64,000 nt of DNA. Origin: Heliocybe sulcata. Lineage: Eukaryota > Basidiomycota > Agaricomycetes > Gloeophyllales > Gloeophyllaceae. The stretch is taken from contig ML213506.1 of assembly GCA_004369045.1 (NCBI GenBank), forward strand, positions 755,512 through 819,511, read 5' to 3'. How positions within the stretch are numbered: position 1 is the stretch's first letter; each line of letters opens with the position of its first letter. Shown one piece after another: positions 20,782-64,000 of the stretch. The translations under genes and the position numbers were made by a program. The notes under the pieces were generated by a model. The model was given only the letters and a program-made list of their open reading frames with translations, was not told where the DNA came from and did not search any database.

Positions 20782-21240
20782 GTGGGCGCGGGCGGTCTTG
20801 CAGATGCAGTTCTCCGGGTCCTCTCGACGTTTCGGATCTGTTTGATGCAGGCATTAATGCACCTGGAAATCTGCCAGTCTCGCGGCGTATTTGACCTCTG
20901 CTGTTTCGATGCAGAACAAAGACATTCATCAACCGCAAATTCAGCGCTCAGTAAATTCATCAGGTATATCGACGCTCCCATTACCGCGGGAATCGGAACC
21001 TGGCGTGCCGCGCAGCGCCGATACTCTCAAGTCATGTTCATAGGAACGACGCTGAGATGTGCTCAAGACGCGATCTGTCACATCCGCGTGACACATCTCT
21101 TCACAACCGACCGCGATGTAGACCTGCAGTCCTACCTGTTTCTGCGTCCCTATGCACCACGGAGCGCCTATATATTTTGTTCGATGTCTCAGAACTTAAA
21201 AGACGCGCTCAGGAAGTGCGTTGAAGGATACTACCAGTAA
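20782..21240 (+). pseudogene. ORF 'W' relic, block 1 (152 codons, probably not functional)
   Basis: The last third (from about 21055) reads QDAICHIRVTHLF and ends DALRKCVEGYYQ, and is homologous at DNA level to 27347-27465 and to about 49140-49260 (-). In block 2 the same region has an internal deletion and stops early. The first part of this ORF lies in the inserted DNA and so is not ancestral. I do not recognise the family; a decayed gene downstream of MRPS9 is the simplest reading. Confidence 0.3.
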
Positions 21241-22107
21241 GGATCCGAGTACACGTCACCGGGTACACCGATGCTCGCTGAGATTCATCCCTTCACAAGC
21301 GGTATCAAGCGAGTACTCGAAAGAAGAAGCTTGCCTAGGTACACGCTGAAATTTTCTGAAGTGTAATCTCTGAATATCGCAGGTCAGATCCTCGTGATAA
21401 TGAAAAGGTATGTCTATTTTCCGATTCTAATTACACTGAATTTTCAAATTTTAGTACCAGGCATTGATCGTGATTTTCGCTTTCGCACGTCATGGCCCTG
21501 AGATGAGCGTGCGTACCTCTTACACCTCCTGCCATCGTGAACATTGACCTAGTTACTCCCTCTTGCCGCGACCATATTTTTTACTGATGTATAACCGAAT
21601 AGGACCCACATACGATTCCGGACTGCAGGGCGTAGGAGTCAGAACAGAGCTACTAGAGTTCGCATCCTATGTTCGGTCTCCGTCGTGTTTGCCATAGATG
21701 CTCTCGGTCTTAGCGACGACACCGACGTGGAAACGGCCATCATTTGTGCATGGCAGGCGGCTCCTCGGCTTTCAGGGAAATCAACCGCGGTTGTACTGCG
21801 ATATTCCGTGCTGGCGGGTGCTCCCTTCTTGCTTACTTTGGCTGCTAATAGACCGTTATCTCAACTCTCGGCAGAAACCTGTGAAGTCTGAAAACGATTT
21901 ACATTATGACTTCGGAGCTCTGGTGTCAATTCTTCATGGCAATCAAGGAGGTACGCTGTTGATATTGACCTTATTCAGATTTGACTAGGTGTCATTCAGC
22001 CAGATCTTCGTCAGGGAAAGAAAAAGTGTTAGAGAGAGATGTGAAAGGTAAGCGTGCGAGTTTACCCATCCCGACATGGAAATGCTCCTTCTCAGTTTGT
22101 CACACCA

Positions 22108-22325
22108 CACGTGGCTTTCGTCGCCTATATGAACGCGACGTTGGTTCGCGTTTGGCTCTCTCCATTGAACTTCACGATGTCTACAAGCTCAAACATTATT
22201 GCGAATATTATNNNNNNNNNNCACGTGGCTTTCGTCGCCTATATGAACGCGACGTTGGTTCGCGTTTGGCTCTCTCCATTGAACTTCACGATGTCTACAA
22301 GCTCAAACATTATTGCGAATATTAT
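22108..22325 (+). other. Assembly gap (10 N at 22212-22221) flanked by an exact 104-bp duplication
   Basis: 22108-22211 and 22222-22325 are identical and sit directly on either side of ten Ns. Other copies of the block have this sequence once. This is most simply two contig ends that overlap but were not merged, so the real sequence probably has one copy. The X1 promoter and first codons are therefore shown twice. Confidence 0.9.
22222..22290 (+). promoter_or_regulatory. X1 core promoter: CACGTG E-box, TATA, short leader
   Basis: CACGTG at 22222-22227, then TATATGA at 22240-22246, then TCTCTCCATTGAAC, then the X1 ATG at 22291. The same order and spacing recur in copies 2-4 and, with diverged sequence, in copy 5 (12-13 bp between E-box and TATA, 51-73 bp from TATA to ATG). 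Confidence 0.6.
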
Positions 22326-24968
22326 ATTCGATTACTCCTCCTCAGGACTCACCTTTGGCACCGCCCCGCTGTCGAGCACGGTCGCCTGGATGGTCCGCCT
22401 CTCTCCCCCGCCGAACATACCCTCGCCCCTCAACGCCGTCCGCCGCCTCGACCGTCAACTGGACAACCTTCAACGCCCACAACCTTGGGATGGCGAGTCT
22501 GACTGGAGCTGGTACCAACGGAAGCACAAGTACATCCGGGTATTCCTAGCTGGCTGTCGTCTGCACGAGCGACGCCGAAGGGAGCTCGAGGCTGTCCCCC
22601 ACCTCCGACGCGTTCGACATGGCGAACTAACCGAAGGCTACGACGGACAAGGCAAAGTATCCAGCGGGAAGCGGCGCCGCGACGGCTACGACGGCTACGA
22701 CCCCCATGCAGACCGGCACGAGGTCGACGACTCTCGGCCAGCCTTCACCAAGCGCTGCACGGTCACAAGATGGGACGAGAGGGACGCGTGTATGGCGTCC
22801 TTTGTGGACCAGGACGTATGGCTGGGGCAGCTTCTGCAAGGTCGACAGGTATGTATCCAAATGATAGCCCACTGGTGAGTGACTGACGCCGGCGTCGTCT
22901 AGATTGTCGGCCACTTGGTCGTCAATGCTCAGGCTTCCGTTGCTCATGTTAAGCCCGAGGAGAAGGGTGATATGGTCAGTAGGACGTCGTTCTCTGCTAT
23001 TGTTTTCTGCTCACCGTCTGTCGTCGTTGTCGTCAGTCCTTCTTACTCAGGTTGGATCTGAACGCTGCCAAGGCCAAAGCCTACTGGGAGAAGCCACCTG
23101 CAAGTGTCTCGCACGTCGTCTCGTCGGCATTCGTCGCAGGTTGTCAAGATGACCTATCTTTGACTACACCAGCTCCTGACGTCATGGAGAACCAAGAGTG
23201 CTCTACCTTCGCCTCGGCTGTTCCTCGCTCGCTGGCTGCCCCTCCCGCTTCTGTCAACGTCTCCCTTCGCCCTACGACACACACGTCGAGCACTCCAGTA
23301 CATTCTACCAAGCTCCGTGTTGTCAGCTCTGGCAAGGAGAACAAGCACCGTCAACATCGGCTTGAAGCTGTGGAGAAGGCGAAGGCTCATCGAAGCAAGC
23401 GGGAAGCGCTCAAGTCCAAGGCTAAGAACGTACGTCAAGCACAGACACCCGAGCAAGCTGCTACGACGGAGACCGTTCTTTCTTCCTTCCTTCGTCCTGA
23501 AGCTTTCTCTGAGCTCGCGCCTCTTCCTCTTGCTCCTAGCTTGACATCTACTATTGAGGCCACTGTTCTCAGAGAAGTGCCCAGCTCAGAAGAGCCTGTC
23601 GATACTCCTGCTGCTAGTCTTTCTACTCCTGCGTACGCATCGACGTCTGGATCTTCGAGCAACACCCCGGCAGCATCGGCCGACGAAGTCGAGACCATCA
23701 TAGCCAGCACTCTTACTCCTGCCCCTGTGTCCTCACCGACATCTGCAGCTCCCGCCGACGGTCACGCACAGCTAATCAATCAAGCACAGACTGTCATCAC
23801 CCCCGCTGCTAGCGCTCATTCGGACGAGATGTCTCTCGACGCTCCTACAGTCAACGATGCCACTCCCAGCGAGCCTTTCCCTCAGGAAGCACCGACCGGC
23901 GGATCTGCTGACGTGGCTATGGAGGAGGCGATTGACGGGACGGACTTGCCGATGGACACTGACGAGCCTGCCGATGACCCCATCGCTGTGGCTCCGGTCA
24001 CCCATCAGGACGATGCTTCTGGGCAACAGGAATCGGGTGCGGAAGAGGAGCCTCAGGCCAGCGCGGATGAAGCAACAGACGAGGAGGCAAAGGGCAATGA
24101 CGATGCTGGTGAAAACACTCCGGTTACTGAAGACGCTCCTGCTCACGAAGGCGAAGAGGTCGAACACGCTTTCCCCACTGGCGGCCCAGACAGCATGGCT
24201 GTCGACCGTGGCACCGACGACGCTCCGACCAGCAGCGACAAGGATGTAGAGGTTCCAGAGCCAACTCCTCCAAAGAAGAACGTCATCAAGATCAAGTGGC
24301 GTTCTCATATGGAGAAGATTCGGAAGCGCGAGAAGGCAGAGAAAGAACTCGAGGATGCTCTAGCTGGCTTCACGCTTGGGTCTTCGACTTCATCTTCTAC
24401 TGCCGTCGACTCTGCTAGCAACGGTGCCGGTCCTTCTGTCTCGCTTGGATCAAATGCGCTGTTCGGCGCCAATCCTGACCACATTCAAGAGCGGGAAGAT
24501 GTCGAGCTCAATGCTTCCATTCGCGATCTCGAGACCATGGTTGTCGATGGCCACGCAAACGGTGGTCCTAGCCGGAAAGGCAAAGAGAAAGAAGCGGCTC
24601 CTGAGTCGAAGCGTCCAATCATACTGAAACTCAAGGGATGGGGCAGCACCATCAGGAAACAGGATGAGGACAAGAAGAGACAAGCAGACCTCGAGGATGC
24701 TCTTGGTGCTTTCTCGCTCGGTGGTTCTTCGTCTTCGTCTTCTGTTGGGCTCGACTCCCCTGGTATTGTCGCCGGACCGTCTTCCCCATCTACCACTGCG
24801 GACCAAACGATGTACGTCGAACAGGACAGCGGGTATGCGAGTGGCTCAGACGAGTCTTCAGCTGGTCGTCGACAGAAACCGAACGGCGACGACGCGGACA
24901 GCGGCGACGAGGACGCAGATATGCCACCCGACTCGGACGACGACCTTGGGGGCGATTCTTCTGTATGA
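22291..24968 (+). CDS. X1: protein of unknown family, conserved N-domain plus acidic disordered tail
   Basis: Not recognised. Exons 22291-22848, 22903-22974, 23037-24968; 853 residues; both introns are phase 0. Residues about 60-186 form the conserved domain: PWDGESDWSW, RKHKY, AVPHLRR, GKRRR, DDSRPAFTKRC, then LQGRQ at the exon end. Exon 2 encodes a short IVGHLVVNAQASVAHVKPEE segment. The large exon 3 is disordered and rich in Ala/Ser/Thr/Pro/Asp/Glu, with KEN-type basic patches near 290. It has two related modules near 623 (KKNVIKIKWR ... LEDALAGFTLGSS) and 735 (KRPIILKLKGWG ... LEDALGAFSLGGS). DSGYAS lies close to the C-terminus. The exon 3 acceptor (TCAG before TCCTTC) is chosen because it keeps the long frame in all copies. 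A nuclear role is a guess from composition only. Confidence 0.75.
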
Positions 24969-25019
24969 ACGGAGTGTGTGCGCGCGGGGGGAAGGGGTCG
25001 CGCAGGGGGGGCGGTGCAG

Positions 25020-26500
25020 CATTTCCATTTTCTTAATATCCTCTTTCATCTTTCTTATCTTTATTTCCTATACTATCGCTCGGAGATACCCCGCTCTATA
25101 CCCCACTATCTCTTTCATTCTTCTATTCCTTATATCCTCTTTTCTCTGGGATACCTGGCATCGGACTGAAGGTGCAGCTGGACAGCGACTGGAGGTGAGT
25201 AGCATCCTGTCTTTGACGTCTCCATATCCTAACGCTATTCGCTAGATTTTACCATGCGCACCTCGACAAAGTTCCACCGTCCCCACCACCCGACCACAAC
25301 GCGCATGCCCTGTGCGCTTCGACACTCTCTGCTATCGTCGATGGTCGGGCTGGGCGCGCATCATCTTTGCAGCCGGAGACACGGTACCAACTCGTACCAG
25401 CCTGGAAGACTGCAGACTGTGTACGTGTTCCATTACTCTTTCCCGGATGGGATGCTTACTCTGTTCCGTTTAGCCTCTTGACAGCCTCCATAGACGTCGA
25501 GGGTCGTTCACTATGGCGCTCGAGTAGCTCGAGACAGGTAGGGATTGTTCTATGGATCTCAACTGAATAGACTGGGACGAGCATCGAACGTGGGCGGCGA
25601 AAGGGCTGTTGGGCATCGCGGCACGGAGCCACCGGAGGAGACGGTCGACGTCGGGGGCGGCAACTGCATGTGCTTCATCAGCATTGGGTACGTCGTCTGT
25701 TCTGCTGTATGGTTCTCGAGCCTATCCTGACAGATACTCTCCAGGTCGGATCGTTGTGCACAAAGGACGTTACGCTCACCTGCTGCCAGCATTGCATTGC
25801 ATCGTACGTTTTCTCATCTGGCTTGCGCGGCACTGTATGTTGATGATATTTTGTAGGGTGCCAAACCATATTTATAGCACCCTCTGAATCTTTCTCCCTC
25901 TGTGGGCATGCTGGCGTCCTAAACTCGTGCATAACGTAAGTCGCCATTCACATCTCCAGTTCGATGATCCTGACTGTCACCCAGGTCCCCGACCTCCCTT
26001 CGGGGACAAACCCGCTCTAAGAGCGGCTCTACCAGCTCAGCCCCTAATTAGACAGATCGACGACAGCACCCCACAGGCTTCAAGAGACCGTGATAGCCCT
26101 TGCCCGAGTAGCAGCCCGATGCCTTTGCGACTCCTGGTATGTTCAGGTGAGTTTGTAGCTGACAGTCCCTGGCCTCATGGCCACGCCAGAACGACGACCC
26201 TCGTTGGGAGGTAAGGCTTCTGTACCGTCTTCCAGACGTTGCTCTTGTGTCGCAAGAGTCAGCTCTTGGAGGCATTTCGACTCACCATCACAGATTCGGA
26301 AGCCATGCCATCATCTCCATCCATGGCTCCAAATTCAAGTCGACCGATCGTGCTGGCCTTGCACGCGATTCTGCCTCCTGTCTCCGTCGCTGGCGTCTCC
26401 CTCCGTCCTCACTTTCACCACGTCAACACCAGTCCACGGGCTCACTATCACGCGTGTCGCGCTTTATCGTGGCCCAGCCCGCACTGCCTCTAGTATCCCC
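25020..26500 (+). other. Y1: spliced transcription-like unit downstream of X1, coding status uncertain
   Basis: Starts with a CT-rich tract (25020-25160) of the kind that precedes transcription starts in mushrooms. A chain of good splice junctions follows: donors GTGAGT (25195), GTACGT (25421), GTAGGG (about 25540), GTACGT (about 25688), GTACGT (about 25802), GTAAGT (about 25936), GTGAGT and GTAAGG near 26147-26210, each with a CT-rich or TAG/CAG acceptor 35-60 nt on. The junctions are kept in copies 2-4 and the first three in copy 5, but small indels shift the reading frame between copies. It could be a spliced noncoding RNA, a gene decayed in most copies, or a small-protein gene. I assign no product. 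Confidence 0.45.
25985..26045 (+). ncRNA. Structured element inside Y1: two adjacent hairpins
   Basis: GTCCCCGA (25985-25992) pairs with TCGGGGAC (26000-26007) as an 8-bp stem. CCGCTC (26012-26017) pairs with GAGCGG (26021-26026). The element recurs at 32426-32486 (+), 44594-44654 (-) and 51190-51250 (-). In those copies one stem base is changed but still pairs as G-U. It lies in what looks like an exon of Y. Whether it is a functional RNA is unknown. Confidence 0.35.
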
Positions 26501-26790
26501 TTCTCTTTTCTCTTTCATATATCATACTATCATGTCATCATTATCTCTCATGGGTGTATCTCCGAGCCGTCTCATCTCAGGATTCGTTTTGTATCGTATC
26601 TTTCTCTTTCTCTTTCTCTTTGGATCTCATTATCTCTCCTCGTATCATCATATGTATTCTGTTTCATTAATATATCCCACTATTCTCTCGTAAGCTCGCG
26701 TAATCTTGAACAGAGAACATAGCGAGACTAGAGGACGTTATTCGGACGTAGGCGACATAACGTGAAGTCGCTCATTCCTTTATGTGTCGA

Positions 26791-27053
26791 GGTCAAGCGG
26801 TGATATGTTCAGATGGTCTTGCCTGCTCCCTCGTCTTGTCTGGTGCTCTGGACTACGGTCTTGTTATTGCTCTAATACACCAGAAAGTAACATTTTTACG
26901 CCTTTTCCTTCTTCAAGTTGACAAACAGAAGACTACTTCAGTGATCAGGCCTCATGAGGTTGTCGTACGCCCTCTCTATTGGCTGGCGAAGCTGTGGCGG
27001 ACAGATACGAGGAGTCCTTGCACTTAATGTTGTGTTAAATACCTGAGGAAACC
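26791..27053 (+). pseudogene. MRPS9 3'-end fragment (last codons and downstream flank)
   Basis: GGTCAAGCGGTGATATGT matches the end of the MRPS9 last exon and the bases after its stop. The following 240 bp match the MRPS9 downstream flank with about one change in six. No MRPS9 exon 1 or 2 sequence is present, so this is a breakpoint inside the parent gene's last exon and not a retrocopy. Confidence 0.75.
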
Positions 27054-27341
27054 GTGGCTGCGGCCCAGCTGAATCGTCTGCAATGGGTCATCTCCCTATG
27101 TGACAATCGCAGGCGAGGCTACATGGAATCGTGCGAGCGTGAGTCAGAACCTAGCAGAACTCTTTCTGATTGCGCGAGAGAGATATACGCGTATCGAAGT
27201 CCCCAGTACTATCGCCTGCAGTTTGCACAGGGAGAAAAGGCAGCCCAAGATATCGCCCTCCAGCTGGGTAAGACGAGGAAGAGCCATCATCGCTTTTGCT
27301 TGTCCTTCCACGTGGCTGATTCGATAAGTATCCAGATGTGA
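27054..27341 (+). pseudogene. ORF 'W' relic, block 2
   Basis: A 95-codon frame with QLNRLQWVISLCDN and QFAQGEKAAQDIALQLGKTR, also found in block 3 (49261-49596, -) with many amino-acid changes, and decayed in block 1 (about 18060-18290). No start context or family support. Splicing or decay cannot be told apart. Confidence 0.3.
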
Positions 27342-28178: not shown

Positions 28179-28291
28179 TCAGCTAGATCTTCGTGGAGGA
28201 AAAGAAAAAGTGGTAGAGAGGGATGTGAAAGGTAAGCGTGAGACTTTATTGATCCCGAAATGGAAATGCTCCTTCTCAGTTTGTCACACCG

Positions 28292-28360
28292 CACGTGGCT
28301 TTCGTCGCCTATATGAACGCGACGTTGGTTCGCGTTTGGCTCTCTCCATTGAACTTCACG
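28292..28360 (+). promoter_or_regulatory. X2 core promoter: CACGTG E-box and TATA
   Basis: CACGTG 28292-28297, TATATGA 28310-28316, ATG 28361. It is identical to copy 1 in this stretch and matches copies 3 (48304-48299 and 48286-48282, minus) and 4 (54983-54978 and 54965-54961, minus). Confidence 0.6.
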
Positions 28361-31300
28361 ATGTCTACAAGCTCAAACATTATTGCGAATATTATCTTCG
28401 ATTACTCCTCCTCAGGACTCACCTTTGGCACCGCCCCGCTGTCGAGCACGGTCGCCTGGATGGTCCGCCTCTCTCCCTCGCCGAACATACCCTCGCCCCT
28501 CAACGCCGTCCGCCGCCTCGACCGTCAACTGGACAGCCTTCAACGCCCAGAACCTTGGGATGGCGAGTCTGACTGGAGCTGGTACCAACGGAAGCACAAG
28601 TACATCCGGGTATTCCTAGCTGGTTGTCGTCTGCACGAGCGACGCCGAAGGGAGCTCGAGGCTGTCCCCCACCTCCGACGCGTTCGACATGGCGAACTAA
28701 CCGAAGGCTACGACGGACCAGGCAAGGTATCCAGTGGGAAGCGGCGCCGCGACGGCTACGACGGCTGCGACCCCCATGCGGACCGGCACGAGGTCGACGA
28801 CTCTCGGCCAGCCTTCCTCAAGCGCTGCACGGTCACAAGGTGGGACGAGAGGGACGCGTGTATGGCGTCCTTTGTGGACCAGGACGTATGGCTGGGGCAG
28901 CTTCTGGAAGGTCGACAGGTATGTGTCCAAATGATAGCCCACTGTTGAGTGACTGACGCCGGCGTCGTCTAGATTGTCGCCCACTTGGTCGTCAATGCTC
29001 ACGCTTCCGTTGCTCATGTTAAGCCCGAGGAGAAGGGTGATATGGTCAGTAGGACATCGTTCTCCGTCGTTGCTTGCTGCTCACCGTCTGTCGTCGTCGT
29101 CGCCAGTCCTTCTTACTCAGATTGGATTTGAACGCTGCCAGGGCCAAAGCCTACTCTCCACCAAGTGTCTCGCAAGCCTGCTCAGCCGCATCCGTTACTC
29201 GCTCCGAAGATGATCTGTCTTTGACTTCGCCGGCTCCTGATGTCATGGAGGACCAAGAGTGCTCTGCCTCCCCTTCCGCCTTTGCTGCTCCTCGCTCACT
29301 GGCTGCGCTTCCCGCTTCTGTCAATGTCTCTCTCCGCCGTACCACGCAAACGTCGTGCACTCCAGCACGTTCTGCGAAGCTCCGTATCGTCAGCTCCGGC
29401 AAGGAGAACAAGGACCGTCAACATCGACTTGAAGCTGTGGAGAAGGCGAAGGCTCGTCGAAGTAAACGGGAGGCACTCAAGTCCAAGGCTAAGAACGTTG
29501 CTCAAGCGCAGACACCCGAGCAAGCTGCTACAACGGAGACCGTTCTTTCTTCCTTCCTTCGTCCTGAAGCTTTCTCTGAGCTCGCACCTCTTCCTCTTCC
29601 TCTTGCTCCTGTCGATGCCTTGATCTCTACCACCGAGGCCACTGTTCTTGGAGAAGTGCCCACCCCAGAAGAGCCTGTCGATACTCCTGCTGCTAGCGTT
29701 TCTACTCCTGCGTATGCATCGACGTCTGGATCTTCGAGCAACACCCCGGCAGCATCGGCCAACGAAGTCGAGACCATCAACGACCTCATAGCCAGCACTC
29801 TTGCTCCTGCTCCTGTGTCCTCGCCGACATCTGCAGCTCCCGCCGACGGTAACGCACAACCACTCAATCAAGCGCAGACTGCCATCACCCCCGCTGCCAG
29901 CGCTCATTTGGACGGCAGGTCTCTCGACGCTCCTTTAATCAACGATGCCACTCCCAGCGAGCCTTTCCCTCAGGAAGCACCGACCGGCGGATCCGCTGAC
30001 GTGGCCATGGAGGAGGCGATTGACGGGACCGACTTGCCGATGGACACTGACGAGCCTGCCGATGACCCAATCGCTGTGGCTCCGGCCATCAATCAGTACC
30101 ATGCTTCTGGGCAACAGAGCTCGGCCGCTGAAGCAACGGGTGAGCAGGCCAAAGACGATAACGGCGCTGGCGAAGGCTCTTCCATCGAAACATCTGGTCC
30201 TGAAGCGACTTTCAATCTCCATGCAGCTAGTACTCCTGCTCTTGCTTCTGTGCACACGCCGATGTTTCCCAGCGACGCTCTGGTGCAATCACCCCATGAG
30301 AAGACTGGCCACGCCGCCGCCGCTGGTGCTCATTCTCCTGAGATGCCTGTAGACGCTTCTATGGTAAACACCTCCCCCAGTGATGCCACTCCTAGCCAGA
30401 CGTCGACGAAAAAGATCGTCATCAGGATCCCGAAGATTGCGGTGACGAAGTTCCGGCAGAACAAGCTGGCAGAGGACAAGTTGGCCGCCCTACTCGAGTC
30501 CACAAGTCTGGGTGGCGCTGCTGACGACAATGGGCCTGGCCCGTCGAGGCGAAGCAACAGCAAGCAACAGCATTCTGGCCTACCCTACAGTAGTAGTCTG
30601 TCGATGACGCGCCGTTTCGCTCTTCAAGGTCGAAGGGAACGTCTGCAGCCGACACCTCAAGGCGGTGGCTCCGCTGACGTCCGCATGGAAGAAGCCATCG
30701 ACAACACTGACTCGCCCATGGACACTGACAATACCGTCGTCGACGAGCTCGCGAATGAACCAGTCATGGACGCTGCGCCCGCGGATGAGGACGCTCCCGA
30801 GAACCAGGAGTCGAGTGCTGAAGAGGAGCCTGGCAGTTCGGACGAAGCCACAGACGAGGATGCCGAGGCCGATGGCGACGCTGGTGAAGACTCTCCTGGC
30901 GAATCCAAGGGTCCCGCCGAAGAGGATGGCGAAGTCAATGCATCCACTAGCCATACGGACAACATGAGCATCGAGGGCCACGCCAATTACGGTCCGAGCC
31001 GGAAAGGCAAGGAGAAAGAAGCGGCTCCTGAGTCGAAGCGTCCAATAACACTGAAACTCAAGGGATGGGGCAGCACCATCAGGAAACACGATGAGGACAA
31101 GAAGAGACAAGCAGACCTCGAGGATGCTCTTGGTGGTTTCTCGCTCGGTGGTTCTTCGTCTTCGTCTTCTGTTGGGCTCGACTCCCGTGGTATTGTCGCT
31201 GGACCCTCTTCTCCAACTATGGCTGTCGAGGAAACGATGTACGTCGAACAGGACAGCGGGTATGCGAGTGGCTTAGACGAGTCTTCAGCTAGTCGTCGAC

Positions 31301-31395
31301 AGAAGCCGAACGCCGACGACGCGGACAGTGGCGACGAGGACGCAGAGATGCCACCCGACTCGGACGACGGCCTTGGGGGCGCTTCTTCTGCATGA
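28361..31395 (+). CDS. X2: largest X-family protein, with a duplicated acidic module
   Basis: Exons 28361-28918, 28973-29044, 29107-31395; 972 residues; same three-exon, phase-0 layout as X1. The N-domain differs from X1 by only a few residues. The tail has two versions of an acidic module: VAMEEAIDGTDLPMDTDEPA (as in X1 and X4) and VRMEEAIDNTDSPMDTDNTV (as in X3). It therefore looks like a fusion of both tail types, which explains its extra length. It carries the KKIVIRIPKIAV module (shared with X3) and the KRPITLKLKGWG module, and ends after DSGYASGLDESS and an acidic run. The last 320 residues are nearly identical to X3. Function unknown. Confidence 0.75.
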
Positions 31396-31444
31396 ACGGA
31401 GTGTGTGCAGGTGGGGTAGGGGTCGCGCAGGGGGGGGACGGTGC

Positions 31445-33130
31445 AGGATTCCATTTTCTTAATATCCTCTTTCATCTTTCTTATCTTTATTTCCTATACT
31501 ATCGCTCGGAGATACCCCGCTCTATACCCCACTATCTCTTTCATTCTTCTATTCCTTATATCCTCTTTTCTCTGGGATACCTGGCATCGGACTGAAGGTG
31601 CAGCTGGACAGCGACTGGAGGTGAGTAGCATCCTGTCTTTGACGTCTCCATATCCTAACGCTATTCGCTAGATTTTACCATGCGCACCTCGACAAAGTTC
31701 CACCGTCCCCACCACCCGACCACAACGCGCATGCCCTGTGCGCTTCGACACTCTCTGCTATCGTCGATGGTCGGGCTGGGCGCGCATCATCTTTGCAGCC
31801 GGAGACACGGTACCAACTCGTACCAGCCTGGAAGACTGCAGACTGTGTACGTGTTCCATTACTCTTTCCCGGATGGGATGCTTACTCTGTTCCGTTTAGC
31901 CTCTTGACAGCCTCCATAGACGTCGAGGGTCGTTCACTATGGCGCTCGAGTAGCTCGAGACAGGTAGGGATTGTTCTATGGATTTCAGCTTAATAGACTG
32001 GGACAAGCATCGAACGTGGGCGGCGAAAGGGCTATTGGGCATCACGGCACGGAGCCACCGGAGGAGACGGTCGACGTCGGGGGCGGCAACTGTATGTGCT
32101 TCATCAGCATTGGGTACGTCGTCTGTTCTGCCGTATGGTTCTCGAGCCTATCCTGACGGATACTCTCCAGGTCGGATCGTTGTGCACAAAGGACATTACG
32201 CTCACCTGCCGCCATCATTGCATTGCATTGTATGTTTTCTCATCCGACCTGCGCGACGCTGTATGCTGACAACCTTTTGTAGGTTGCTAAGGGTTCCATA
32301 CCATATTCACAGCACCCTCTAAATCTTTCTCCATCTGTGGGCATGCTGGCGTCCTAAACTCGTGCATAACGTAAGTCACATTCAAGTTTGCGTGTGCCAG
32401 CTCGAGGATCCTGACTGTCGTCCAGGTTCCCGACCTCCCTTCGGGGACAAACCCGCTCTAAGAGCGGCTCTACCAGCTCAGCCCCTAATTAGACAGATCG
32501 ACGACCCACAGGCTCCAAGAGACCGTGATAGCCCTTGCCCGAGTAGCCGCCCGCTGCCGTTGCGACTCCTGGTATGTTCAGGTGAGTTTGTAGCTGACAA
32601 TCCCTGGCCTCATGGCCACGCCAGAACGACGACCCTCGTTGGGAGGTAAGGCTTCTGTACCGTCTTCCGGACGTTGCTCTTGTGACGCAAGAGTCAGCTC
32701 TTGGAGGCATGTCGACTCACCATCACAGATTCGGAAGCCATGCCATCACCTCCATCCCATGGCTCCGAACTCAAGTCGACCGATCGTGCTGGCCTCGCAC
32801 GCGATCCTGCCTCCTGTCTCCGTCGCCGGCGTCTCCCTCCGTCCTCACTTTCACCACGTCAACACCAGTCCACGGGCTCACTATCACGGCGTGTCGCGCT
32901 TTCTCGTGGCCCAGCCCGCAATGCCTCTAGTATCCCCTCCTCTTTTCTCTGTCATATATCATACTATCACGCCATCATTATCTCTCATTGGCGTATCTCC
33001 GAGCCGTCTCATCTCAGGATTCGTTTTGTATCGTATCTTTCTCTTTCTCTTTGGATCTCATCATCTCTCCTTGTACCCTCATATGTATTCTCATTTCATT
33101 AATATATCCCACTATTCTCTCATAAGCTCG
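31445..33130 (+). other. Y2: spliced transcription-like unit downstream of X2
   Basis: Same layout as Y1. The first 540 bp are identical to Y1, including the CT-rich tract and the first two introns (donors GTGAGT near 31621 and GTACGT near 31847). Later parts differ by scattered substitutions and indels; for example the fifth exon has an extra AAGG-type insertion near 32290. The hairpin element is at 32426-32486. Coding status is as uncertain as for Y1. Confidence 0.45.
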
Positions 33131-33530
33131 TGTACTCTTGAATGAGAACATACGGCTCAGACTGGAGGCTGTCATTGGGGCATAGGTGATATAATGCGCG
33201 GTCGTTGACTCCTTTCTAAGCCTAGTATGCCATATGCGATATTCATTCTGCCAGCAGAGTCTGCGTCCGCGAATTTGCAGTGTACCGATGGGCTAACCTG
33301 TTGAGCAGCTTGCTATGTGGTGGAGTGTGAGCTCAGGATGAAAATGGTGTTGGGGGACAACGGTCGTGGAAGTCGCAGGAAACAGTGGGCTATCAGGACG
33401 ACTAGTTACAGTACCAGTCAGGCAACAAATCGCAATTCTATGATGGATGGGAGATGTTTGAAGAATCCAGGGGAAACTGCAGGCGTAAGGGCTCTAGGTT
33501 GACAGGGTATCATTGACATAACTAGAGGCG

Positions 33531-43926: not shown

Positions 43927-43989
43927 TTAGAGCTTCTCTTGTCGGACTGGGGAATGGTGTGATATATTAATGAGATGAGAATACATGCA

Positions 43990-45650: not shown

Positions 45651-45674
45651 TCCCCCCGCGCGCATACACTCCGT

Positions 45675-48235: not shown

Positions 48236-48446
48236 CGTGAAGTTCAATGGAGAGAGCCAAACGCGAACCAACGTCGCGTTCATATAGGCGACGAAAGCCA
48301 CGTGCGCTGTGACAAACTGAGCAGGAGCATTTCCAGTTCGGGATGAATAAAGTCTCACGCTTACCTTCACGTCCTTCTCTACCACTTTTTCTTTTCCTCG
48401 ACGAAGATCTAGCTGAGTAATAGGTAGTCAAGTCTGGACAAGGTTA

Positions 48447-49260: not shown

Positions 49261-49596
49261 TCACATCTGGATACTTCTCAGCCGTGTGTATACATCGCCC
49301 CTGATATTCCTCAAGACCGAGCCATCTGCATTGATATTGCGGAAGGACGAGCAAAAGCGATGATGGCTCTTCCTCGTCTTACCCAGCTGGAGGGCGATAT
49401 CCTGGGCTGCCTTTTCTCCCTGCGCAAACTGCAGGCGATAGTGCTGGGGACTTCGATACCCGTGTATCTCTCTTGCGTGATAAAAATGACTTATGCTAGG
49501 TTCTGACGCCCTCTCGGACGATTCCATGTAGCCTGGCCTGCCATTGTCAGATAGGGAGAGGACCCACTGCAGACGATTCAGATGGGCCGAAGCCAC
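49261..49596 (-). pseudogene. ORF 'W' relic, block 3
   Basis: 111-codon frame sharing HLNRLQWVLSLSDN, QFAQGEKAAQDIALQLGKTR and KSHHRF with the block 2 frame, but with an extra internal stretch (about 49265-49345) absent from block 2. It looks like a decayed member of the same unknown gene. Confidence 0.3.
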
Positions 49597-49839
49597 GGTT
49601 TCCTCAGGTATCTAACACAACACTGGGTGCAAGGACTACTCGTACCTGTCCGCCACAGCTTCGCCATCCAATAGGGAGGGCGTAGGACAACCTCATGAGG
49701 CCTGATCACTGAAGTCGTGTTCTGTTTCTCAACATGAAGAAGGAAAAGCGTAAAAATGATACTTTTTGGTGTATTAGAGCAATAACAAGACCGTAGCCCA
49801 TGGCACAGATAAGACGAGGCAGCAGGCAACACCACCACA

Positions 49840-50160
49840 TATCATATATCACCGCTGACCCAGGTGTACTGAATGACAACACGCCAGTGGCGGAAATTGG
49901 ACCCGAAATCGTGAAAATACGCACCCTGGCCCTCGACTTGCGCAGACCCGTCTTCTTTCTCCCACTGTTCTCGGATCTCTCCTCGTCAACTTCGACCTCC
50001 GTAACACCAGGTCCGCCGTCTCCGCCTGTCTTGCCTTCCGCACCTCCGCCTCCTTGTCCCGCCGCGCCTGCACGAGTTGCTGTACCTCCTTTACCTGCTT
50101 GTCCTCCTCGGCTCCACCCGGGGCGCCCATCCTCGCTTCGTCCGGAGTCGGTAACAATTC
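49840..50160 (-). pseudogene. MRPS9 3' fragment including an intron
   Basis: Minus strand matches the end of MRPS9 exon 2 (EVRKARQ, DLVLRRSKLTRRDPR), the whole last intron (donor GTGCGTATTTTCACGAT) and the last exon, then the downstream flank. Retention of the intron shows that it came from DNA duplication, not from mRNA. It begins abruptly near 50160 and lacks exon 1 and most of exon 2. As it has small frame-changing differences and no start it cannot encode uS9m. Confidence 0.85.
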
Positions 50161-50599
50161 CGCAGACTCGTATCTGATGATGCGAAATTAAGCTATGTTA
50201 ATGGCACCCTGCCAATCCAGTGCCGTTATGCCTGCGGTTTCCCCTTGGCTCCGCAAATATAACCCCATCTATCATAGAATCTCGAATTGTTGTCCGGCTG
50301 TGCTGGCAGCTCGTTACTTCTGCAACTTCCACGACCGTTGTCCTGCCACATACTCCTATGCCTGAGCTGAAGAGTCCATGGTATAGTAAGCTGTTCGACA
50401 GGCTATATGGGGAGCCAGAGTTCTCCAGCAGATCTTCGAATATCGCATATGGCATACTAGGCTCAGAAAGGAGTCAACGACTGCGCATTATATCACCTAT
50501 GCCCCAATGACAGCCTCCAGTCTGAGCTGTATGTTCTCGTTCAAGGGCACGCGAGCTTATGAGAGAATAGTAGAATATATTAATGAGATGACAATACAT

Positions 50600-52240
50600 G
50601 CAATGATACGAGGAGAGATGACGAGATCCGAATCCAAAGAGAAAGATACAATACAAAACGAATCCTGAGATGAGCCGGCTCGGAGATACACCCATGAGAG
50701 ATAATGTTGGCGTGATAGTATGATATATGAAATAGAAAAGAGGAGGGATACTAGAGGCATTGCAGGCTGGGAAGCGCGACACGCGTGATAGTGAGCCCGT
50801 GGACTGGTGTTGACTGGTGAAAGTGAGGACGGAGGGAGACGCCGGCGACGGAGACAGGAGGCAGGATCGCGTGCGAGGCCAGCACGATCGGTCGACTTGA
50901 ATTCGGAGCCATGGATGGAGGTGATGGCATGGCTTCCGAATCTGTGATGGTGAATCGAGATGCCTCCAAGAGTTGACTCTTGCATCACAAGAGCAACGTC
51001 CGGAAGACGGTACAGGAGCCTTACCTCCCAACGAGGGTCGTCGTTCTGGCGTGGCCATGAGGCCAGAGATTGTCAGCTACAGACTCACCTGAACATACCA
51101 GGAGTCGCAAAGGCAGCGGGCGGGTACTCGGGCAAGGGCTATCACGGTCTCTTGGAGCCTGTGGGGTGCTGTCGTCGATCTGTCTAATTAGGGGCTGAGC
51201 TGGTAGAGCCGCTCTTAGAGCGGGTTTGTCCCCGAAGGGAGGTCGGGAACCTGGGTGACAGTCAGGATCGTCGAACTGAAAATTTGTATGCGACTTACGT
51301 TATGCACGAGTTTAGGACGCCAGCATGCCCACAGAGGGAGAAAGATTTAGAGGGTGCTGTGAATATGGTATGGAACCCTTAGCAACCTACAAAACGTTGT
51401 CAGCATACAGCATCGCGCAGGTCAGATGAGAAAACATACAATGCAATGCAATGATGGCAGCAGGTGAGCGTAATGTCCTTTGTACACAACGATCCGACCT
51501 GGAGAGTATCCGTCAGGATAGGCTCGAGAACCATACGGCAGAACAGACGACGTACCCAGCGCTGATGAAGCACATGCAGTTGCCGCCCCCGACGTCGACC
51601 GTCTCCTCCGGTGGCTCCGTGCCGCGATGCCCAACAGCCCTTTCGCCGCCCACGTTCGATGCTTGTCCCAGTCTATTCAATTGAAATCCGTAGAACAATC
51701 CCTACCTGTCTCGAGCTACTCGAGCACCATATTGAACGACCCTCGACGTCTGGGGAGGCTGTCAATAGGCTAAACGGAGAAGAATAAGCATCCCGTCCAG
51801 GAAAGAGTAATAGAACACTCACCCAGTCTGCCGTCTTCCAGGCTGGTACGATTGGTACCCTGTCTCCGGCTGACAAGATGATGCGCGCCCAGCCCGACCA
51901 TCGACGATGGGAGAGTGTGTCGAAGCGCACAGGGCATGCGCGTTGTGGTCGGGTGGTGAGGACGGCGGAACTTTGTCGAGGTGCGCATGGTAAAATCTAG
52001 CGAATAGCGTCAGGATATGGAGACACCAAAGAAAGGATGCTACTCACCTCCAGTCGCTGTCCAGCTGCACCTTCAGTCCGATGCCAGGTATCCCAGAGGA
52101 GAGAGGGTATAAGGAATAGAAGAATGAACGAGATAGTGGGGTATAGAGCAGGGTATCTCCGAGCGATAGTATAGGAAATAAAGATAAGAAAGATGACAGA
52201 GGATATTAAGAAAATGGAAATCCTGCACCGCCCCCCCTGC
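50600..52240 (-). other. Y4: spliced transcription-like unit downstream of X4
   Basis: Reverse-strand counterpart of the other Y units, with CT-rich tract (about 52090-52215), conserved junctions and the hairpin element at 51190-51250. The second donor is GTGAGT as in Y3. Frames are not conserved with Y1 and Y2. Confidence 0.42.
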
Positions 52241-52257
52241 GCGCGCACACACTCCGT

Positions 52258-54914
52258 TCATGCAGAAGAAGCGCCCCCAAGGTCGTCGTCCGAGTCGGGT
52301 GGCATCTCTGCGTCGTCGCCGTTCGGTTTCTGTCGACGACCGACTGCAGAATCGTCTGAGGCACTCGCATACCCGCTGTCCTGTTCGACGTACATCGTTT
52401 GGTCCGCAGTGGTAGATGGGGAAGACGGTCCGGCGACAATACCAGGGGACTCGAGCTCAACAGAAGACGAAGACGAAGAACCACCGAGCGAGAAAGCACC
52501 AAGAGCGTCCTCGAGGTCAGCTTGTCTCTTCCTGTCCTCATCGTGTTTCCTGATGGTGCTGCCCCATCCCTTGAGTTTCAGTGTTATTGGACGCTTCGAC
52601 TCAGGGGCCGCTTCTTTCTCTTTGCCTTTCCGGCTCGGACCACCGTTTGCGTGGCCGTCGACAACCATGGTCTCCAGATGGCGAATGGAAGCATTGAGCT
52701 CCACATCTTCCCGCTCTTGAACATGCTCAGGATTGGCGTCGAACAGTGCACTTGATCCAAGCGAGACAGAAGGACCGGCACCGTTCCTAGTAGAGTCGAC
52801 GGCAGTAGAAGATGAAGTCGAAGACCCAAGCGTGAAGCCAGCTAGAGCATCCTCGAGTTCTTTCTCTGCCTTCTCGCGCTTCCGAATCTTCTCCATATTA
52901 GAACGCCACTTGATCTTGATGACGTTCTTCTTCGGAGGAGTTGGCTCTGGAACCTCTACGTCCTTGTCGCTGCTGGTCGGAGCGTCGTCGATGCCACGGT
53001 CGACAGCCATGCTGTCTGGGCCGCCAGTGGGGAAAGCGTGTTCGACCTCTTCTCCTTCGTGGGCAGGAGCGTCTTCAGTGACCGAAGTGGTTTCACCAGC
53101 ATCGTCATCGTCCTCGGCCTCCTCGTCTGTTGCTTCATCCGCGCTGGCCTGAGGCTCCTCTTCAGCACCCGATTCCTGTTGCCCAGAAGCATCGTCCCGA
53201 TGGGTGGCCGGAGCCACAGCGATTGGGTCATCGGCAGGCTCGTCAGTGTCCATCGGCAAGTCGGTCCCGTCAATCGCCTCCTCCATAGCCACGTCAGCAG
53301 ATCCGCCGGTCGGTGCTTCCTGAGGGAGAGGCTCGCTGGGAGTGGTGTCCTTGACCACAGGCGCGTCGAGAGACATGTCCTCCGAAGGAGCGCTTGCAGC
53401 GGGGGTAATGACAGTCTGTCCTTGATTGAGTGGTTCGGCGGCACCGTCGGCGCGAGCGGCAGACGTCGGCGAGGACAGAGGAGCAGAAGCAAGAGTAGTA
53501 GCTATGAGGTCATTGATGGTCTCGACTTCGTTGGCCAATGCTGCCGGGGTGGTGCTCGAAGATCCAGACGTCGATGCGTACGCAGAAGTAGAAACGCTAG
53601 CAGCAGAAGTATCGACAGGCTCTTCTGGGTTGGGCACTTCTTCAAGAACAGTGGCCTCGGTGATAGACGTCAAGCCAGGAGCAACAGGAAGAGGCGTGCG
53701 CTCGGACAAAGCTTCAGGACGAACGAAGGAAGAAAGAACGGTCTCCGTCGTAGCAGCTTGCTCGGGTGTCTGTGCTTGACGAACGTTCTGAGCCTTGGAC
53801 TTAAGTGCCTCCCGTTTACTTCGATGAGCCTTCGCCTTCTCCACAGCTTCAAGCCGACGTTGACGGCCCTTGTTCTCCTTGCCGGAGCTGACAACACGGA
53901 GCTTGGCAGAACGTACTGGAGTGCTCGATGTTTGCTTGGTACGACGGGAGACATCGCCAGAAGCGGGAGGCGCAGCCAGTGAGCGAGGAGCAGCAGAGGC
54001 GGAAGGGGAGACAGAGCACTCTTGGTCCTCCATGACGTCAGGAGCAGGCGTAGTCAAAGATTGTTCATCTTCAGAGCCTGCGACGGATGCCGCCGAGACG
54101 ACGTGCGAGACACTTGCAAGAGAGTAGGCTTTGGCCTTGGCAGCGTGCAAATCCAGTCTGAGTAAGAAGGACTGACGACGACGACAGACGGTGAGCAGCA
54201 AGCAACGATGGAGAACGACGTCCTACTGACCATATCACCCTTCTCCTCGGGCTTAACATGAGCAACGGAAGCGTGAGCATTGACGACCAAATGGGAGACA
54301 ATCTAGACGACGCCGGCGTCAGTCACTCAACAGTGGGCTATCATTTGGATACATACCCGGCGACCTTCCAAAAGCTGCCCCAGCCATACCTCATGGTCCA
54401 CAAAGGAGGCCATACACGCGTCCCTCTCGTCCCACCTTGCGACCGTGCAACGCTTGGTAAATGCTGGCCGAGAGTCGTCGACCTCGTGCTGGTCCGCATG
54501 GGGGTCGTAGCCGTCGTAGCCGTCGCGACGTCGCTTTCCGCAGGATACCTTGCCTTTCCCGTCGTAGCCTTCGGTTAATTCGCCGTGTCGAACGCGTCGG
54601 AGGTGGGGGACCGCGTCGAGCTCCCTTCGGCGTCGCTCGTGCAGACGACAACCAGCTAGGAATACCCGGATGTACTTGTGCTTCCGTTGGTACCAGCCCC
54701 AGTCAGACTCACCATCCCAAGGTTCCGGTCGTTGAAGGCTGTCCAGTTGACGGTCGAGGCGGCGGACGGCGTTGAGGGGGCAGGGTATGTTCGGCGGGGG
54801 AGAGAGGCGGACCATCCAGGCGACCGTGCTCGACAGCGGGGCGGTCCCAAAGGTGAGTCCTGAGGAGGAGTAATCGAAGATAATATTCGCAATAATGTTT
54901 GAGCTTGTAGACAT
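52258..54914 (-). CDS. X4: X-family protein
   Basis: Exons (minus) 54914-54357, 54302-54231, 54171-52258; 847 residues. The N-domain is as in X1 but the last residue before intron 1 is Arg (CGG) instead of Gln, leaving a usable donor. The tail has VAMEEAIDGTDLPMDTDEPA, EEEPQASADEATDEEAEDDD, KKNVIKIKWRSNMEKIRK, LEDALAGFTLGSS, KRPITLKLKGWG and DSGYASASDDSA. It is therefore the same tail type as X1. Function unknown. Confidence 0.75.
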
Positions 54915-55096
54915 CGTGAAGTTCAATGGAGAGAGCCAAACGCGAACCAACGTCGCGTTCATATAGGCGACGAAAGCCACGTGCGGTGTGACAAACCGAG
55001 AAGGACCATTTCCATTTTGGGATCAACAAAGTCTCACGCTCACCTTTCACATCCCTCTCTACCACTTTTTCTTATCCTCGACGAAGATCGGCCTGA

Positions 55097-55363: not shown

Positions 55364-55506
55364 GACAGAGAGCATCCATGACCCAACATATCGGAGACCG
55401 AACGTAGGACGTGAGCTTCATTATCTCTGCATATAATACATCATCTGAAGTCCAAGAACATAAAACAAATAAGATACTCCAAATCTATCTCACCTCCCAG
55501 TCGCAT

Positions 55507-60920: not shown

Positions 60921-61350
60921 ATGCATGGAACGCGAGTATTGGCATTTACGGACTGCCAACTAGTTTTAGCTATGGCTAGGAATGACCGGAAGGTTGATGC
61001 GTAGGCGTGAAGTTTGGAATATTCTGCCGTACGTTCTCTGATGCAACCATGAACTAGTTCTTATCGTCGGTGAATTGCCAGTGCTCTCGCGGTCCTGTAC
61101 CGCGAGATTACCCCCGTATGGACGGGTAATTCTATCATTTCTGCCCATTCGTAGTAAGCAAGGGAACCCGAGTTTCCAGGGACCACGGTTCTGAAGGGCC
61201 AGGTACGTGCCGACATTTAACATCCATAATAAGAGATGCTGAAGTACTACAGGAGTCTGATCAGCTCAATTATTCTGCAGGCGGAAATATATTCAATTAT
61301 TCAGTGAGTGTGGGGTTGCTATCCGAGCTGAAATCCGTCTAGCAAGCAGA
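60921..61350. other. Intergenic between permease and block 5
   Basis: Permease 3' flank; ends where similarity to the X upstream region begins (about 61350, GAAAAGGGGAGAGCGATGTG). Nothing else recognised. Confidence 0.5.
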
Positions 61351-61432
61351 AAAGGGGAGAGCGATGTGAAGGTCAACGTGGGAACTCAATGTATCCATAT
61401 ATGGAAGTGCTCCTACCCTGTAAGTCACACGG

Positions 61433-61524
61433 CACGTGACACGCCCGCGCCTATATGAGGGCGACCTGGTTCGAGTTTTGCTCTCTCCATCGGTCTTCCA
61501 CCACGTTGACAGATATCCAGAGTT
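61433..61524 (+). promoter_or_regulatory. X5 core promoter: CACGTG and TATA
   Basis: CACGTG 61433-61438, TATATGA 61452-61458, TTTGCTCTCTCCAT leader, ATG 61525. Upstream bases also match copies 1-4 (GGAA-TGCTCCT, TAAGTCACACGGCACGTG). Confidence 0.55.
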
Positions 61525-63374
61525 ATGCAAAGCTCTAGCGTTTATAACAACCTTCCTGCGCCTTCGTCCTCGACTGACATTAGTCCCTCGATGGATCGAC
61601 CTCCCGCCTCCCTCAACGCCTTCACCTACCCTCGTCACCTTCAACGTATCAACCGCCCTGTTCCCTGGGCCGGCGAAAGCGACTACTCCTACTACTACCG
61701 CAAGCACCGCTACGCGCGACAGCTTATTGAGAAGCAGCGATTTGAGCGACGCCTTCTTGAGAGTATCGCAGCAGACAACGCTAAGCTCGACGCCGTACCT
61801 CACAACCGTCGCAACATGTACGGGGAACATCGAGAACAATACAACGAGTCTGATATGGGTAAGCGTCGTCGCTGTTGTTATAGCTTACGCGCTGCGGGCA
61901 ACGCCCTCGACGACTCTCGCCCTGCGCTGGTTAAACGCTGCAGCACGTCGTTATGGACGGGCAGCACCGCAACCATGACCGTCGAGCTGGAGGACCCACT
62001 GCTGTGGGAGAGCGAGATGAAGGAAGGTAGACAGGTGCGTACACGGTTGCCTTCTGTTGGAGCTTGTGTACTAAGCTACTCGCCGTCCAGGCCATCTGTG
62101 TCGCTGCTGATTTCATTACAGCTTGGACCTCGGTGCAAGGTCGCGTGAACGTCGAAGTAAGTCTCTTGCCCTTGGCTGCTATCCTGTGTCTCATTGGTAC
62201 CCGCGGCGGCCAGACCTTCACGCGACGATGGGATTATTGCCTTCAGACAGGCACGCCGTTCTGGGAGCCCGCCCCTCAGCCAATCACCACGAGCGACGTC
62301 TCGGACATGCAAGTTGACGTTGTTTCGCTTGTGGACGTCTCTATGCCTAACGCATCGACTATCCCGCGACCTCTCGAGGACTCTCAACCAGACAGCTCTG
62401 ACATGGACTTGGACAGCTTTGACGACGCGCAAGGTGGCCCACAAACGATTCAAACGTCTGCCACGACGGCCAGCCAACCCTTAGTCAACCATCGAGCTCT
62501 TCCCTCCGAAGCAACAGAGAATTTCCAGACTCGCCTCCAGGCTGCTTTCGCTACTGCGCCCGAGACATCCGCTCAAGTCACTCCTCCATCTGACCTGGAT
62601 ACTGGTTTCATCTTTGAAGACGTTGAGCAAGCTGCTACTACTCCTGTCGCCGTCCCTGAAACTGTAGGCCCTCTTGGTGACAACTCTACGCCGGTCAGCC
62701 ACCCTGTCGAGGGCGACGACGATCAGGCCGACTACGACGACATCTTCGCCAGTGTCTACAATGAAGCCTACGAGGCCTGCGAAGCTCAATATCCTGAAGC
62801 CATTCTGCAACATCTCGAAGAGCCGCTCCATTCTCCCGCATATACCAGCTCAGAACAGGTGGCTGCTCAGGTTTATGACTCCTACGACTCGGACAGCGAC
62901 GACGGCTACCAAGTTAGCCTCGGTTCTGACGACGGCTACCACTGCAGCCCCGGGCGCGACGACGAATTCTATGGCAGCGTCTCTGACAGCACTGAGGACG
63001 CTGAACGCTACTATCCCGAGGACGTGGCCAACTCACTGGAGTACAGCAACCCCAGGGTCGTCGATTCGGACAGCACGCACGCCAGCATTGAAGAGACCGA
63101 AACGTACTTCGACGACGAGGTCAAGGACTCGGAGACAAGCGCTGTAGAAGACCTGCATGCTAGTGAAGGCACTCCTGAACCAGAATATCCTGCGACGCTG
63201 GCGAATAACCTGGATTTCGGGCTTGATGATCTCGTCGATACGGGCGCGGCGGACTTCCTGCATTTCGTTGCGCATGTACAATATGCTCCCCCTGTCGTTA
63301 GTCCGGGCGACGACAAGAACTACAGCGGCGATTCTCGCGGAGGTTCTCAGGAGGGAGAGCGGAGATGCGTATGA
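61525..63374 (+). CDS. X5: diverged X-family protein
   Basis: Exons 61525-62034, 62091-62156, 62214-63374; 578 residues; the same two phase-0 introns as X1-X4. The N-domain keeps PWAGESDYSYYYRKHRYAR, AVPHNRR, YGEH, GKRRR, DDSRPALVKRC and KEGRQ at the exon end. The rest of that exon is replaced to a large extent. Exon 2 (AICVAADFITAWTSV...) has little identity to the other copies but the same length class. The tail is acidic and disordered, with repeated SDDGY units near 460, and lacks the KLKGWG/LEDAL modules and DSGYAS. Retention of the N-domain over large divergence argues for a real, selected protein. Function unknown. Confidence 0.75.
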
Positions 63375-63401
63375 GGTGGATGGGGGGGAGGTGGGGACGG
63401 G

Positions 63402-63432
63402 GGTGGTGGTGGTGGTGGTGGTGGTGGTGGTG
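63402..63432 (+). repeat. GGT trinucleotide microsatellite
   Basis: About ten GGT units, 28 bp after the X5 stop and just before the Y5 tract. Confidence 0.95.
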
Positions 63433-63439
63433 ATTTGTC

Positions 63440-63965
63440 ATGGATGAGTTCTGTTCTTTCTGGTTTTCTTTTATCTTTATTAGCTATATATCGCTCGGAG
63501 ACGCCCCTTTATACCCTCATTCTATCCTTCTATTCTGTATACCCTCTTTAGTCTTCTTCCTTCTGGGATACCCTGGCATTTGGACTGAAGGTGCGACTGG
63601 ACTGCAATTGGAGGTGAGTGGTATTCATAATTTCCTCTGCTGCATTCAACTAATGCTGTTCTCTAGATTCTTTGGATGCGCACCTGGAAGTCTCACCCTC
63701 CTCATTACCAGCCGGCCAATATGCGCAGTCTTTTGCGCTTCGACATATACTCTCTTTTCAACGTCGATGGTCGGTCTCGGTGCGCATTCATCTGTCAGCC
63801 GGAGATGTGGTATCAATTCGTACCGGTCCGGAGGACTGCATACTTGGTACGTCCGCACGTGAGATTCCTCGAACACAATACTTACATGATTCCGTTCAGG
63901 CCTTTTGTCGACATCCTGACACTTCAGGGAGTTGTTCATTATGGTGCTCGAGTAGCTCGAGATAG
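63440..63965 (+). CDS. Y5: candidate three-exon small ORF after X5
   Basis: Exons 63440-63613, 63667-63846, 63900-63965 join in phase 0 to give 139 residues from ATG 63440 to TAG. Exon 1 is strongly hydrophobic (FWFSFIFISY, SILLFCIPSLVFFLLGYPG). Exon 2 has LLRFDIYSLFNVDGRSRC and QPEMWYQFVPVRR; exon 3 ends LWCSSSSR. The donor that follows the stop (GTAGGG) and further exons in the other copies suggest the transcript continues past the window. Copies 1-4 keep the junctions but not this frame, so coding is only a possibility. Confidence 0.3.
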
Positions 63966-64000
63966 GTAGGGATTGTTCTGTGGATCTTACTTCCTGAATG

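Follow-up and report, generated by a model that had tools for sequence, protein, structure and literature searches.

Introduction

Orphan duplicated genes are common in fungi, and the lineage-specific orphan protein families of mushroom-forming fungi consist of clustered duplicates with disordered tails and no Pfam domain. The gene family studied here, X, is alike in these respects, and its copies X1 to X5 occupy ~22-63 kb of a 64,000-nucleotide stretch of the Heliocybe sulcata genome (hereafter the window; C4:755512-819511, in an assembly that totals 31.6 Mb over 51 contigs). X differs from those families in that a conserved promoter and a second, apparently constrained and spliced non-coding unit, which we call Y, were duplicated along with the gene. 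Based on the analyses below, we think it probable that the region is a segmentally duplicated family of working X genes, each followed by a Y unit under constraint.

Among described systems, Y is comparable to multi-exonic long non-coding RNA (lncRNA) genes such as GAS5. Y resembles these in having several introns, no coding signal and exons that are better conserved than introns, and differs in being a small multi-locus fungal family with predicted introns of 41-60 nt and no Rfam family at the gathering score. The tails of X1 to X4 can be compared with the ET-binding motifs of Sth1, Snf5 and Ino80 (PMC7442819) and of NSD3 (PMC5701133), which likewise alternate hydrophobic and basic residues within a disordered region. 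Unlike those motifs, the X tails reach at most six of the seven consensus positions, with none in X5, and are candidate ligands.

Structure and Selection of the X Genes

The earlier note on this DNA proposed five X genes of three exons with both introns in phase 0, and the splice models agreed with that layout in all five cases:

22291..24968, + strand: X1, 853 amino acids (aa); exons 22291-22848, 22903-22974, 23037-24968; splice model from GT/AG sites
28361..31395, + strand: X2, 972 aa; exons 28361-28918, 28973-29044, 29107-31395; splice model
45675..48235, - strand: X3, 814 aa; exons 48235-47678, 47623-47552, 47489-45675; splice model
52258..54914, - strand: X4, 847 aa; exons 54914-54357, 54302-54231, 54171-52258; splice model
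61525..63374, + strand: X5, 578 aa; exons 61525-62034, 62091-62156, 62214-63374; splice model

Exons 1 and 2 measure 558 and 72 nt in X1 to X4 and 510 and 66 nt in X5, which places both introns in phase 0 in 5/5 models. Exon 1 encodes an N-terminal domain (N-domain) of 170-186 residues, in which X5 is 43-44% identical to X1 to X4 and 66 of the 195 columns of the X1 to X5 alignment are invariant. The alignment also contained the motifs that had been listed for this domain, though not always letter for letter: X4 has G in place of the S that follows GESD[WY], and at EGRQ X1 and X3 have QGRQ and X4 has EGRR. The N-domains are basic (isoelectric point (pI) 8.6-9.3) and the tails are acidic, as proposed (pI 4.1-4.8 across X1 to X5). 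Three features lay beyond that first description: a sixth copy, X6, a Y unit without X (Y15), and an assembly artefact at X1. X6 lies at C4:870547-871035, 51 kb past the window, and its neighborhood shares 92% DNA identity with that of X5 over 1253 bp, ending at an assembly gap. This gap (~L024:3300-5765; C4 ~867.8-870.3 kb) conceals the X6 tail and the core of its Y unit, Y6. X genes were found in one region of C4 only.

Exon 1 gave ratios of non-synonymous to synonymous substitution rates (dN/dS) of 0.16-0.54 in 15 of 15 pairs of X1 to X6, indicative of purifying selection. Values were 0.16-0.44 within X1 to X4, 0.40 between X5 and X6, and 0.41-0.54 for X1 to X4 against X5 or X6, the last range being rough because synonymous sites are near saturation (proportion of synonymous differences (pS) 0.60-0.64). 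For X5, considered in the earlier note to be too diverged for neutral retention of its domain, introns and promoter, dN/dS against X1 to X4 was 0.41-0.48 (again rough, at pS 0.62-0.64), consistent with selection on its N-domain. In exons 2 and 3 combined, dN/dS within X1 to X4 was 0.37-0.70, measured partly across poorly alignable tail. Substitutions were in excess at codon position 3 in five of the six exon-1 pairs of X1 to X4, the near-identical pair X1 and X2 having 4/4/6, and all exon-3 gaps were multiples of 3 in the pairs of the same tail type, X1 with X4 and X2 with X3. Together, these data show that the predicted X genes encode proteins, conserve their introns and evolve under purifying selection.

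A core promoter precedes each of the five genes:

22222..22290, + strand: X1 core promoter, CACGTG then CCTATATGA
28292..28360, + strand: X2 core promoter, CACGTG then CCTATATGA
48236..48304, - strand: X3 core promoter, CACGTG then CCTATATGA
54915..54983, - strand: X4 core promoter, CACGTG then CCTATATGA
61433..61524, + strand: X5 core promoter, CACGTG then CCTATATGA

The arrangement common to all of them is CACGTG, a spacer of 10-11 nt and CCTATATGA, so that X5 has kept the promoter as well as the phase-0 introns. Of the window's 11 CACGTG sites, six are paired with CCTATATGA, the sixth being an assembly-duplicated copy at X1. There, a run of 10 N (22212-22221) just 5′ of the gene is flanked by identical 104-bp copies (span 22108-22325), which are most likely unmerged contig ends, an assembly artefact and not a biological repeat. 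The promoter and first codons (22222-22424 and equivalents, ~186 bp) are 98-100% identical in all six X1 to X4 pairs, and the DNA directly 5′ of this block is 79-91% identical. The block may have been homogenized by recent conversion, or it may be a regulatory element that reaches into the coding region.

The Y Unit

The window holds a Y unit directly downstream of each X gene and on the same strand:

24971..26703, + strand: Y1; introns from 25195, 25421, 25688, 25804, 25936, 26147
31396..33134, + strand: Y2; introns 31621-31671, 31847-31899, 32114-32170, 32230-32282, 32371-32425, 32582-32624
43954..45673, - strand: Y3; six introns, donors 45448, 45224, 44957, 44841, 44702, 44492
50549..52259, - strand: Y4; six introns, donors 52047, 51822, 51555, 51439, 51298, 51088
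63378..64000, + strand: Y5, start only; runs on past the window end (L023)

These units were aligned with part of Y6 and with Y15, and the search for shared splice donors used Y2, Y5 and Y15 out of the seven rows, because Y1 to Y4 are near-duplicates and Y6 lacks the region. The donor pattern GTRNGT occurs 9, 8 and 8 times in Y2, Y5 and Y15, respectively, and seven of these occurrences fall at common columns in copies with exons only 62-71% alike. Two of the seven columns, separated by 13 positions, probably represent alternative donors of a single intron. Among 180 permuted patterns the next best shared two columns, and the antisense donor pattern shared none. To predict introns, each of six donors was joined to the nearest acceptor-like site at least 38 nt downstream, with columns taken from the Y2 set. 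The predicted introns are 41-60 nt long; the acceptors are less secure than the donors, since the rule picks differing sites in some copies.

Exons so defined were better conserved than intron interiors in all 15 pairs of six copies (Y6 excluded; p 5e-9 to 1e-2), pairs that share history and are not 15 independent tests. Exon and intron mismatch amounted to 3.2-4.9% and 8.1-12.7% within Y1 to Y4, and to 28-38% and 46-50% in pairs that include Y5 or Y15. The exons of Y5 are 71-72% identical to those of Y1 to Y4, and the synonymous sites of X5 are 36-38% identical to those of X1 to X4 (from pS). Conversion among Y copies alone could raise the exon figure; bearing against such an account, Y15, which lies on a different contig, shows 65% exon identity to Y5 overall and 80% in the best exon. 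Two 30-bp blocks, among the best candidates scored, each occur at six places with three or fewer mismatches, all in Y1 to Y5 and Y15, and a reversed control gave no matches. RNAalifold analysis of two stretches of Y predicted 75 and 42 base pairs, of which 5 and 3, respectively, had changes on both sides; the covariation terms were -0.6 and +4.48, a weak signal.

No codon periodicity was detected in the exon substitutions of Y (0 of 14 tests at p<0.05, lowest p 0.07), and the exon gaps include frame-breaking lengths of 1, 2, 5 and 8 nt. Across the window, L023 and L025, no Rfam family reached the gathering score, and a relaxed search gave one sub-threshold match to a bacterial small RNA in Y5 (E 0.12) and none in Y2. 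A role for Y as a small nucleolar RNA host was rejected, based on the predicted introns being only 41-60 nt and on the lack of an Rfam match at the gathering score. Together, these comparisons show Y, as aligned here, to be non-coding, with at least six shared donor positions and conservation of most exons; it behaves as a spliced non-coding RNA under constraint would be expected to.

The earlier note had described X and Y as traveling as one cassette. This held in the window, in which Y lies behind each of X1 to X5 with donors at shared columns, and failed on contig C15, where Y15 (~379.8-380.9 kb) occurs without X. Y15 is on the same strand as, and 3′ of, a disordered open reading frame (ORF) of at least 1267 aa. 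A full-sensitivity profile search of ten loci identified X5 and X6 and otherwise gave chance scores (best non-X E 3.2), so the C15 gene, in which this search found no X domain, was excluded as a diverged X. The position of Y15 behind a non-X gene indicates that Y is either an independent unit or one that two unrelated genes share at their 3′ side. The long disordered product of the gene before Y15 (C15 ~381.7-392 kb; L025, L028) contains repeats that resemble RSPSLEYVSPSPIRETLSSLPVP, and a further ORF upstream of it has a sub-threshold DUF6630 match.

It would be unusual, were transcription confirmed, for a non-coding unit found after two unrelated protein genes to have its donors and most exons kept by selection at 62-72% exon identity. 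The six readable copies of Y, with their two near-invariant 30-bp blocks, form a small defined set in which to test what a spliced non-coding RNA does in a fungus.

Origin of the Copies

Self-comparison of the window revealed cassettes of ~5-6.7 kb in both orientations. Cassettes 2 and 3 start with sequence matching the end of the ribosomal protein S9 (S9) gene and the DNA downstream of it:

16205..17991, + strand: S9 gene, fragment source; two ORFs, extent approximate
26791..27307, + strand: copy of S9 3′-end/downstream DNA in cassette 2; 64% to 17714-18286
49338..50130, - strand: copy of S9 3′-end/downstream DNA in cassette 3; 72% to 17440-18291, with 47/71 aa identical to the S9 C-terminal frame

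These fragments indicate that the duplicated block came from beside S9. Along the cassette the nearest partner switches, which is a mark of recombination or gene conversion. X1 is 97% identical to X2 at 22424-22723 (later exon 1), as against 91-92% to X3 and X4, and 97% identical to X4 at 24150-24449 (mid-tail), as against 53-61%. The mid-tails of X2 and X3 are 98-100% identical, with 100% over 300 columns from 30843, and X1 and X2 are 98-99% identical again in early Y. The promoter and first codons, being near-identical in all six pairs, do not discriminate between partners. Based on these comparisons, X1 to X4 are shown to be segmental duplicates with mosaic tails, the duplicated block having included the S9 gene end and segments having been exchanged since. 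A second duplication relates X5-Y5 to X6-Y6, and these two have additional sequence in common (75% over 1.86 kb).

Searches for Relatives, Structure and Tails of X

The suggestion that X belongs to no named family was upheld in the libraries searched, with no known family or transposon domain above cut-off in Pfam, PDB-sequence or fold searches. For the X exons, Pfam returned sub-cut-off matches only (DMRT5_DMB E 0.067, PriC E 0.04) and no transposition domain in those tested. A sequence profile search of the PDB with the N-domain gave 0 matches at E 10, and a Foldseek search of PDB folds, made with the weak X5 model only, gave eight matches up to E 10 (best E 2.2). Pattern scans of prokaryote genomes and viral contigs gave 38 and 55 matches, none of them confirmed as a relative, which has little meaning for a fungal gene. 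A literature search found nothing relevant describing the X family or Y among its best-ranked papers, a weak negative as its terms were generic. "Undescribed" as applied to X thus covers the Pfam and PDB libraries and not fungal proteomes, and fungal relatives named "hypothetical protein" may well exist.

The tails of X1 to X4 fall into two mid-tail types, one shared by X1 and X4 and the other by X2 and X3. A module of ~50 residues repeats within the X1 and X4 tails at 47-48% identity. The tails contain strand-like peptides (VIKIKW, ITLKLKG) similar to peptides that bind ET domains, for which PMC7442819, on Taf14-ET, gives the consensus hydrophobic-x-hydrophobic-basic-hydrophobic-basic-hydrophobic; IVIRIP (X2, X3) fits this less well. 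The fraction of 2000 shuffles that reached the observed number of near-matches was 0.001 for X1, 0.000 for X4, 0.029 for X2 and 0.042 for X3, with the X1 and X4 counts each including two overlapping matches at one place. A further near-match, FLLRLDL, sits at the exon-3 start of each of X1 to X4, outside the repeat. The genome encodes one ET domain (C1:2645251-2645492). A DSGYAS sequence lies near the C-terminus of X1 to X4, and the tail readings that follow apply to these four copies.

As to function, X may tentatively be seen as a regulator or adaptor in the nucleus, a role that we consider doubtful at present. In such a role the N-domain, which is basic and helical, would make contact with a partner or with nucleic acid. 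The tails of X1 to X4 would offer their repeated strand-forming peptides (VIKIKW, ITLKLKG, IVIRIP) to an ET-domain protein or another coactivator, and DSGYAS, which looks like a phosphodegron, might act as a degron.

Several results weigh against these interpretations of X and Y. Structure prediction of the N-domain, a check proposed in the earlier note, succeeded in part: AlphaFold, given exon 1 only of X5 and X2, returned weak models for both (mean predicted local distance difference test score 54 and 39), that of X5 being confident at residues 32-92 only, mostly one long helix with no fold match, and that of X2 being unusable. Nucleic-acid contact by the N-domain is in consequence a guess from charge. 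The four X pairs of differing tail type have some exon-3 gaps that are not multiples of 3, in mid-tail DNA that is hardly alignable. For Y, the shared history of the pairs has been mentioned; in addition, the lead of the 5-base pattern GTRNG is small (9 columns versus 7 for overlapping patterns), and between Y2 and Y5 two of the seven exons (columns 1281-1368, 53%, and 1426-1562, 49%) show no more conservation than the introns do. The full ET consensus of PMC7442819 is matched by no tail, the best segments of X1 to X4 having six of seven positions and X5 none, which excludes ET binding as a function of the entire family.

Alternative Explanations

The possibility that Y is an independent spliced lncRNA acting in cis on its neighbor stands about level with the possibility that it is the 3′ untranslated region of the preceding gene. 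In the specific form of the latter that we considered, a realistic prospect that we nonetheless rate below an even chance, read-through mRNA spliced several times after the stop codon would be exposed to nonsense-mediated decay, which would thereby control X dosage. In its favor, Y lies behind unrelated genes, as such a 3′ module would, and on the same strand, and its first shared donor is 211-240 nt past the stop codon in X1 to X5. For the C15 gene this distance is ~650 nt, unlike that of the X genes, and a pyrimidine-rich, TATA-like stretch at the start of Y, by our own reading of the alignment, would suit a separate promoter. A broader proposal, that Y represents a new family of spliced, sequence-conserved fungal non-coding RNAs that lie behind genes for long disordered proteins and control them in cis, is unlikely on present evidence. 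On that proposal X and Y would constitute a co-amplified RNA-protein regulatory pair, and Y15 would illustrate an RNA module able to serve an unrelated host gene. We attach the least credence of all to Y being a protein-coding gene with very small exons, or the decayed remains of one. Its conserved GT donors and some open frames would accord with such a gene, but the 14 periodicity tests and the frame-breaking exon gaps argue against it, several frames over the same stretch are similarly identical (e.g., 54-61% for Y5 against Y1, Y2 and Y4, among the pairs listed), and seven kept donors are not expected of a decayed gene.

The cassette as a whole could be viewed as a mobile element, given its repetition in both orientations, a lone Y on C15 and a lone tail fragment on contig C2. 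We regard this as very improbable, as the X exons tested contain no Pfam transposition domain, X is restricted to one C4 region, the cassette introns are retained and S9 fragments were carried along. A slightly less remote idea, though still improbable, is that X is a selfish or self-recognition gene (a spore killer or incompatibility gene) kept by conflict; the clustering of the copies and their mosaic, faster-evolving tails would agree with this, but dN/dS is below 1 in every whole-exon comparison and the N-domain and promoter are strongly conserved. The reading that we prefer is that of working, segmentally duplicated X genes, each with a constrained Y behind it.

Neighboring Genes and Other Features

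The C2 fragment corresponds to an X exon-3 tail alone, in an open frame (L026:4124-4458; C2 ~294.1-294.5 kb). Over 335 bp it matches X1, X3 and X4 at 84-87% identity, and over 433 bp it matches X2 at 79%. Pfam supports the identity of several neighbors of the X genes, namely ATP sulfurylase, an amino-acid permease, an RNase H2 subunit, S9 and allantoicase/ureidoglycolate lyase. Searches for multicopper oxidases and for peroxidases returned eight matches and two adjacent matches, respectively. Short-chain-dehydrogenase-like genes, whose identity was read from the frames, follow Y5 (L023 ~4806-6607) and lie on both sides of X6/Y6 (L024 1436-2729 and 7867-9215); the two fragments tested had no Pfam match at E 0.01. 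From their positions, these genes seem to be part of the second duplicated block.

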